Source: Betaproteobacteria bacterium Ga0077532 (GTDB taxonomy: Bacteria > Pseudomonadota > Gammaproteobacteria > Burkholderiales > Ga0077523). Taken from it: a stretch of 64,000 bases of DNA. The notes beneath the pieces were generated by a model. That model saw nothing but the letters and a program-made list of their open reading frames with translations. It searched no databases and was not told where the DNA came from. Below, piece by piece: positions 56,474 through 58,476 of this stretch (position 1 is its first letter; every line of letters starts with the position of its first letter). The position numbers were made by a program, and so were the translations under genes. The stretch lies in NCBI GenBank assembly GCA_001464895.1, contig LNEE01000062.1, forward strand, positions 376,333 through 440,332. Direction: 5' to 3'.

Positions 56474-56866
56474 ATGTCCAGCCCCCCGCCCGCCGCCGTC
56501 GCCAACGTCCTCGGGACGCCGCTGCAGGACTGCAGCCACGACCCGCTCACCGGCTACTTCCGCGACGGCTGCTGCCGTGCCAGCGCGAAGGATCTCGGCA
56601 CCCACGTCGTCTGCGCCCGCGTCACCGCCGAATTCCTGGAGTTCAGCCGCGCGCAGGGCAACGATCTCGTCACCCCGCATCCCGAATGGCAGTTCCCCGG
56701 CCTGAAGCCCGGCGACCAGTGGTGTCTCTGCGTCCTGCGATGGAAGGAAGCGGCGGAGGCCGGCGTCGCGCCGCCCGTGGTGCTCGAGGCCACGCACATC
56801 CGCGCCCTCGAGTTCGTCAGCCTCGCCGATCTGAAGTACCACGCGTTCCGGGTGCGGGAGGCGTAG
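56474..56866 (+). CDS. DUF2237-family protein
   Basis: 130 residues matching DUF2237: NVLGTPLQDCSHDPLTGYFR, DGCC, GTHVVCARVTAEFLEFSRAQ, GNDLVTPHPEWQFPGLKPGD and WCLCVLRW. Conserved Cys residues suggest metal binding, but the function is unknown. It is very widespread and usually a single gene. Confidence 0.92.
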   Translation: MSSPPPAAVANVLGTPLQDCSHDPLTGYFRDGCCRASAKDLGTHVVCARVTAEFLEFSRAQGNDLVTPHPEWQFPGLKPGDQWCLCVLRWKEAAEAGVAPPVVLEATHIRALEFVSLADLKYHAFRVREA

Positions 56867-56936
56867 CCGCCGCGCGGGACATCTCTGCGGTCGGCCCTCT
56901 CGTCATGCGATCGTTCGACAGGACATCGTGCCTGCA

Positions 56937-57797
56937 ATGAAGGCGCTGATGATCGCGATCGTGCTGCTCGGGGCTGGCGTCGCCCTGCTTGCGGTGGCAG
57001 GCCGGTCACGCTGGGACGTCGGCACCCGCGAACTCATGGCCCGGTTGGAGGCAGCCCGTGAGGCGCCCTACGCCGGCGGTGCCGATCCGCACCCGGCGGA
57101 TCCCGTGCCCCTGCCGGTACAGCGCTTCTTCATGGCCGTCCTGCCCGAGCGGGCACGGATCGTCACCGCCGCGACTGTCACCCACTCCGGCACGTTCAAC
57201 CTGAGCGAGACCGGCGAGCAATGGCGTTCCTTCACGTCCACACAGCGCGTCACGACGCGCCGGCCTGGATTCGTGTGGGACGGACGCGTGGCGATGCTGC
57301 CCGGATTCCCGTGGCTGTCCGTGCATGTGCACGACGCGTACGTGGCAGGCGAGGGCCGCCTGCATCCAGCGCTGCTCGGGCTCGTCACGTTGGCCGACCT
57401 GCGCGGTGACGGCGACATCGCCCGCGGCGAACTCCTGCGCTATCTCGCCGAGTCCGCGTGGTATCCAACGGCGCTGCTGCCGGGACACGGCGTCGAATGG
57501 ACGGCGATGGACGATCGGTCGGCTCGCGCGACGCTGGTGGATGGCGCGATCTCCGTGTCGATGCTGTTCCGGTTCGGCGCGGACGGCCTGATCGAGTCCG
57601 TCCGCGCCGAGAACCGCGGGCGGACGGTGGGCGGGAAGCTGGTGCCGACGCCGTGGGAGGGGCGATGGTTCGACTATCGCCTGCACGAAGGCGTGCTGGT
57701 GCCGTTCTCGGGCGAGGTGGCGTGGCTGCTGCCCGAAGGGCGGCAGCCATACTGGCGCGGCACCATCGAGTCACTCGCGTACGAGTACGCGCCGTAG
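56937..57797 (+). CDS. DUF6544-family protein
   Basis: 286 residues with an N-terminal membrane anchor (ALMIAIVLLGAGVALLAVAG) and then family-typical segments: VQRFFMAVLPERARI, RRPGFVWDGRVAMLPGFPWL, LSVHVHDAYVAGEGRLH, GDIARGELLRYLAESAWYPT and YWRGTIESLAYEYAP. The family is of unknown function. The start is ATG 56937; GTG 56928 is an alternative. It is convergent with the disrupted cupin. Confidence 0.85.
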   Translation: MKALMIAIVLLGAGVALLAVAGRSRWDVGTRELMARLEAAREAPYAGGADPHPADPVPLPVQRFFMAVLPERARIVTAATVTHSGTFNLSETGEQWRSFTSTQRVTTRRPGFVWDGRVAMLPGFPWLSVHVHDAYVAGEGRLHPALLGLVTLADLRGDGDIARGELLRYLAESAWYPTALLPGHGVEWTAMDDRSARATLVDGAISVSMLFRFGADGLIESVRAENRGRTVGGKLVPTPWEGRWFDYRLHEGVLVPFSGEVAWLLPEGRQPYWRGTIESLAYEYAP

Positions 57798-57821: not shown

Positions 57822-57872
57822 TCAGGCCGGCGGGCCGGCGTCCGCGATGACGAACACCTTCTTCATGGGCAA
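57822..57872 (-). pseudogene. Displaced 3' end of the disrupted cupin gene
   Basis: In this frame the minus strand reads PMKKVFVIADAGPPA and a stop, a natural end for a cupin whose main part lies at 58087-58476. It is cut off by the inserted element. Removing 259 nt (57874-58132) restores one frame reading REPLPMKKVF. Confidence 0.7.
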
Positions 57873-58139
57873 GGGAGCCTCTGCATAGCCTGCGCGGATC
57901 GCGTTGCTGTCGGAATCGATCGGTGGCAAGGCGCGAGGTGCAGTCGATATCGGGAATATCGACAAGCCGAGTAACGCGGCCAGCGATCGATTCCGGCGCA
58001 ACCCTCCGGGACGGGGCCTTCCGGGCCGCTGACATTGTCGGCACAGTCCTTGTGTGCTCCAGCACACGGCGGCCTGGTCCTTCGCGTCATCCGCCCGGAA
58101 GACCTCCGTCGCGACCGCGCAGGCTATGCAGAGGCTCCC
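57873..58139. mobile_element. MITE-like element with 25-bp terminal inverted repeats
   Basis: Positions 57873-57897 and 58115-58139 are perfect 25-bp inverted copies, beginning GGGAGCCTCTGCATAGCC. The 217 bp between them contain no gene but two internal palindromes: GTCGATAT/ATATCGAC (57943-57963) and GTGTGCT/AGCACAC (58052-58067). No target duplication is obvious. The element splits a cupin gene, so it moved or was inserted after that gene was intact. Confidence 0.75.
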
Positions 58140-58476
58140 GTCGGATGTCCCACATCGTGGGCGTGCCCTTGCTCCACGAGCAGATGTCGCCGGGGCCGTA
58201 GACATGCTTCGTGCCGTCGGTGAGATCCTCGATCTCCACCTCGCCCTCCAGCACCACGAACGTCTCGTCACCGTCGTCGGACGAGAAGAAGGTCTTGCCC
58301 AGGACACTGCAGCGCCAAAGCCCCACGCTGTAGGTGTTGCCGGCCGACCCCAGCTCGCGCATCACGACTATCTCGCCGAACTCCACCGTCTCGCCGTCCT
58401 TCTCGTAGCGCAGCGGCACCCAGTCGTCCATCAGGATGTTGCCGGTGAAGAAACGTTGCGCGGCTTCCATGTTCAT
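58087..58476 (-). pseudogene. Cupin-domain protein with C-terminus replaced by insertion
   Basis: 129 residues as it stands. The cupin core is intact (DGDETFVVLEGEVEIEDL, GPGDICSWSKGTPTMWDIRR), but the last 14 or so residues (LHSLRGRDGGLPGG) are encoded by the inserted element instead of the native ending. The start at ATG 58476 has GGGGAGAG upstream. It may still fold and work, since cupin barrels usually tolerate C-terminal changes, so it is marked as disrupted rather than dead. Confidence 0.75.

Follow-up and report, generated by a model that had tools for sequence, protein, structure and literature searches.

A cupin gene interrupted by a probably IS5-mobilised MITE from a structured, phylum-wide element superfamily

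The window, the whole 64-kb stretch of DNA that we analysed, holds a cupin gene on the minus strand whose reading frame starts at 58476 and now stops at 58087, within a non-coding inverted-repeat element. As the original prediction had claimed, the displaced 3' end of the gene is still readable and the present protein ends in element-encoded residues. A 289-aa open reading frame (56928-57797) lies between a small open reading frame (56474-56866) and the cupin gene; in the congener G006 (locus L039) the latter two are adjacent. The features at the insertion are as follows.

57822-57869, minus strand: displaced 3' end of the cupin gene (..PMKKVFVIADAGPPA), identified from the reading frame and the intact homologue
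57870-57873, no strand: left target flank CAAG, from the sequence and by analogy with siblings flanked CAAG/CAAG and CTTG/CTTG
57874-58138, plus strand (orientation from arm 1): MITE proper, 265 bp, delimited by its inverted arms, sibling insertion limits and multicopy occurrence
57874-57897, plus strand: left terminal inverted repeat GGAGCCTCTGCATAGCCTGCGCGG, its tip like IS5-family ends in G006 and a decayed one in the genome of the window
57901-58014, plus strand: match to covariance model R1 (128 bits), with no other match in the 64-kb window
About 57903-58002 and about 58003-58010, both inside the R1 match: arm 1 with mismatched internal loops, and the central mini-hairpin
58009-58111, plus strand, limits approximate: arm 2, from the fold and from opposite-strand model matches in relatives
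58115-58138, minus strand: right terminal inverted repeat, from the inverted-repeat comparison
58139-58142, no strand: right target flank CGTC, from the sequence, a degenerate or altered copy
58087-58476, minus strand: interrupted cupin frame in its present form, 129 aa, the last ~17 aa derived from flank and element

An intact cupin gene with the site empty was found in G006, where the protein is 98% identical and reads ..MWDIRKPMKKVFVIADAGPPA. The cupin gene of G011 (65% identity) is also uninterrupted and lacks the segment. The site reads TTCATGGG CAAG-GGAGCC...GGCTCC-CGTC GGATG in the window, the hyphens marking the element, and TTCATCGG CTTG CGGATG in G006. Compared with this intact gene, the window shows a net gain of 268 nt. 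Deleting 259 nt, as originally proposed, also restores the frame, but 9 nt of the element then stay behind, and the rejoined sequence REPLPMKKVF is not native cupin sequence, as the intact homologue differs. The interrupted protein has lost the end of its domain, scoring 33.7 bits against Cupin_3 compared to 40.0 for the intact G006 protein. The cupin frame is open at near-native length (129 versus 128 aa), as would be expected if the segment were a normal part of the gene that homologues had lost or never possessed. However, it is absent from the homologues at both levels of identity, recurs at unrelated sites elsewhere in the genome and was not found as a normal gene part in any of the homologues identified, and we give this reading practically no chance of being correct. 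The multicopy element and the homologues with an empty site instead bear out the predicted MITE-like insertion, which in itself is an ordinary event.

The predicted 25-bp perfect arms are present, the sequences at 57873-57897 and 58115-58139 being exact inverse complements. In sibling copies the last base on the outer side of both arms belongs to the target site, which brings the element down to 265 bp; it is non-coding as predicted, but not 267 bp long. With 24-25 bp perfect arms and no conserved open reading frame, the window copy has the form of a MITE. Its internal palindromes can indeed fold, the 267 nt giving z-scores of -11.8 (DNA) and -13.9 (RNA) against dinucleotide shuffles. The flanks of the window copy, CAAG on the left and CGTC on the right, form no clean target duplication, and this counts against the MITE explanation.

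A genome search for the end sequence, as suggested with the original prediction, revealed further complete or damaged copies on contigs C51, C34, C35, C33, C62 (at 10 kb) and C39, together with fragments. The congener G006 holds ~10 copies and G002 diverged ones. The C34 sibling is flanked by CTTG on both sides, and two paralogous places in G006 are free of the insert, reading GGGGC CTTG GTCAG or similar; comparison of this copy with the empty sites therefore fixes both the limits of the element and a 4-bp duplication. The insertion on C35 is common to G006, and the same site is empty in G003 and G002. Four G006 copies have CTAG on both sides. Within the genus the ends differ among copies, beginning GGGAGCC.., GGGAGAC.., GGGAAGG.. 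or AAGGAAGG... One sub-lineage in G000 and G006 (L010, L011, L012, L048 and L050) carries arm-1 expansions of 15-30 nt, and some of these are re-paired. In the right flank of copy L009, TAGGGCCTGTTCACGC stands just after position 1278; it is part of the other common end type, so that this copy may adjoin a remnant of another element.

Ends of the same kind occur on autonomous elements. G006 carries an IS5-family element with a 328-aa transposase, CTAG flanks and the ends GGAACCTCTGCACAGCC; the window copy has GGAGCCTCTGCATAGCC instead, and some of the G006 copies have GGAGCCTCTGCACAGCC. The transposase belongs to the IS5 family (NF033581, 344 bits against a cut-off of 140). A broken copy of this insertion sequence, with 92-95% protein identity and similar ends, lies on C10 of the genome under study. 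The complete genome G185 contains 22 full copies of the structured element, 96-100% identical and beginning (C)TAGAACCCATTTCATMAATAG, as well as 12 equally scoring transposase copies of an 859-bp IS5-family element, whose transposase matches NF033580 in two frames. Four of these 859-bp elements were read end to end and have the ends of the 22 copies with 1-2 differences. A second pairing in the same genome joins the structured copy L169, which begins AGGGCCTGTTCAC, to the second IS5-family element L250, which begins CTAGGGTCTGTTTAC, so that G185 has two element types with ends like two different IS5-family elements. G185 also contains short derivatives, either ~53-bp near-perfect palindromes of the two ends alone or 38-bp one-end remnants (L165 1579-1631, L166 1537-1590, L156 1679-1716, L157 and L163), which were apparently formed from the element by internal deletion.

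Matching helper insertion sequences were found in G006 and G185 only, plus the decayed copy in the same genome as the window. A search for an IS427-type helper (PF13340) detected no gene in G053, G156, G189, G048 or G140, and the IS427-type genes examined in G018 and G056 are without matching ends. The element family thus shows multiple copies, a target duplication (the C34 sibling) and ends common to autonomous elements (G006, G185 and the decayed one), as expected of a MITE. Since the ends, the targets, the empty sites and the matching insertion sequences all agree, we infer that an IS5-family transposase most likely moved the element. Such a transposase would recognise the tips of the inverted ends, and insertion would occur at CWWG/CTAG-like targets with a 4-bp duplication.

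The covariance model R1 was built from an alignment of 14 arm-1 cores, which gave strong support for the structure. At E<=1e-4, the model had matches in 55 of the 200 genomes sampled from the order, representing 37 of 108 genera. The corresponding figures are 49 of 369 genomes and 40 of 272 genera at class level, and 47 of 398 genomes at phylum level; the three samples overlap a little. Hosts named by a pattern scan include Halopseudomonas, Nitrosospira, Rhizobacter, Acidovorax and Methylophaga. Matching genomes often hold many copies, and the R1 copy numbers are lower bounds. Copies were observed at contig ends (L117-L119 in G065 and several G220 and G401 matches); the repeats therefore probably break draft assemblies, leading to underestimated copy numbers. 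The shared architecture consists of a closing stem formed from the ends, arm 1 with its mismatched loops, a small hairpin and arm 2. The window element belongs to this superfamily, having the R1 arm with mismatched loops, the mini-hairpin, closing ends and a length of ~270 bp. The fold recurs at a nearly constant length of about 265-275 bp, and complete elements are mostly 261-286 bp. In many relatives R1 also matched the opposite strand of the same copy, ~97 nt away, and arm 2 is therefore an inverted cousin of arm 1 with the small hairpin as the centre of symmetry; arm 2 of the window copy gave no match to R1 at E<=1e-5. The elements of the superfamily are twofold-symmetric over ~270 bp, with the small hairpin in the centre, an arm on either side of it, the second one inverted, and an end outside each arm.

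Searches of plasmids with the window and G185 elements gave no match, nor did a core-pattern scan of viral contigs. Neither a description of the core nor a name for the family was found in the open-access literature. Integron attC sites were considered and dropped on inspection, as the GTT start and the AAC end of the arms are the opposite of those in attC sites. An IHF site in the elements was rejected as weak (13 of 102 elements versus 5 of 102 shuffled).

The stems of the superfamily covary. In a wider set, whose alignment was fitted to the model and therefore favours the structure, standard pairs filled 95.5% of paired cells, and there were 1088 double changes compared to 292 after shuffling and no more than 243 after sliding the alignment. 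Among sibling copies within genomes, 210 of 247 left-end differences were mirrored in the right end, alongside 64 one-sided differences, in regions chosen by complementarity, which favours pairing, and over copy pairs that are not independent. How such paired changes may arise can be seen among near-identical copies. A two-sided end change is common to three of the 22 G185 copies. In the G185 copy L274, the arm-1 loop has given way to a sequence exactly complementary to the opposite side, producing a perfect 48-bp hairpin, and the G006 copy L047 is a smaller case (14 bp against 9). Template switching at quasi-palindromes has been described for RNA genes (PMC8794818), and its expected pattern leaves a clear trace in L274 and a smaller one in L047. 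Because paired changes can arise as in L274, covariation alone is no proof of a functional RNA here. The end and arm stems may thus covary at least partly through replication template switching, in which one side of a quasi-palindrome is copied onto the other, and we infer that this would be the general process behind the stem covariation. In G185 (L097 and all its siblings), arm 2 forms a perfect hairpin of 17 bp around a 5-nt loop, compared to 3-8 bp in arm 2 of other genomes, and it may stem from an earlier template switch that later spread.

The loops behave differently from the stems. Among 73 distinct cores, most loop positions are conserved in 80-100%, whereas the stem bases vary and are almost wholly different between genera. 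One could regard the element as a plain IS5-derived MITE with a functionless core, its stems paired by template switching alone and its loops kept by recent spread. The traces in L274 and L047, the IS5-type ends and recent bursts such as that in G185 are all consistent with this. On the other hand, loop positions are conserved although the stems differ between genera, template switching would erase the loops, as it did in L274, and element length is nearly constant, making such an origin rather improbable. We favour instead a MITE whose loops are probably under selection, because they persist across the phylum although template switching can erase them. The mismatched loops may be where a factor of the host or of transposition binds, presented as a DNA hairpin or as RNA.

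An unlikely but more serious alternative is that the arms act as a structured RNA with a regulatory or processing role that transposition has spread. The covariation would then reflect ordinary selection at the RNA level, and the inverted arm 2 would place the motif on a transcript of either strand. Such an RNA would explain the covariation of the stems and the phylum-wide conservation of the loops. In the motif direction, G-U mispairs exceed A-C mispairs in the two arms (122:19 and 38:11) but not in the closing stem (48:56), although the model, relatedness and a few columns all bias these counts, and DNA hairpins also tolerate G-T wobble. An excess restricted to the arms would fit selection on one strand there, and the QMITEs of Coxiella include transcribed copies (PMC5896051). 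In contrast, no Rfam covariance model matched the window or nine relatives at gathering score, and L274 demonstrates paired changes through copying at the DNA level. Collectively, these results suggest, with a probability of roughly 80%, that the cupin gene was interrupted by a non-autonomous MITE that was mobilised by an IS5-family transposase and belongs to a twofold-symmetric superfamily with partly template-switched stems and probably selected loops.

Several known systems resemble this superfamily in part. REP, BIME and REPIN sequences are dispersed palindromic non-coding repeats, some of which are inverted pairs of a structured unit, and the mobiliser of REP is RAYT. They differ from the present elements in size, motif, target and mobiliser, the ends of the present elements being of IS5 type. 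IS5-family insertion sequences (NF033581, NF033580) share the end tips and the CTAG-like targets in the case of the G006 and G185 elements; however, they carry a transposase, and the copies that were read share the end tips alone and lack the structured arms. MITEPsy1 of Pseudomonas syringae is an IS5-type element related to ISPsy2 whose transposition has been observed (PMC3189936). Its ends GGAAGGTCTG.. resemble GGAAGGTCCG.. of the G002 copy L058, and it too has a 4-nt CTAG/YTAA target duplication and inserts into coding genes, but at 100 nt it is too short for two arms and a core, and its distribution is described mainly within Pseudomonas (PMC3189936). QMITE1 and QMITE2 of Coxiella burnetii are likewise multicopy; their ends measure 20-odd bp, their predicted folds are long and palindromic, and they interrupt or overlap genes (PMC5896051). 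By its published description, QMITE1 is set apart by its ~400 bp and IHF site, and the study found no relatives of it in other genomes; QMITE2 is set apart by 7-9 bp repeats (PMC5896051).

Copying by template switch could let both ends change together and so follow new insertion sequences. A tentative extension of this idea, which we hold at somewhat less than even odds, is a phylum-wide lineage in which the folded core is kept, the ends are re-matched by template-switch copying to the resident IS5-family transposase and the loops are recognised, as hairpin DNA or RNA, by a putative host or transposition factor. MITEs are usually thought of as derivatives that arise from one insertion sequence by deletion and do not last long. 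In this superfamily, one core occurs across the phylum and its ends match different IS5-family elements, which suggests long-lived parasites that can change their helper. The multicopy stems may also serve as a natural record of template-switch correction, with a before-and-after case among near-identical copies, and they make it possible to ask what share of the covariation commonly taken for RNA selection stems from mutation instead. Finally, the conserved loops raise the concrete and testable question of which factor binds them.
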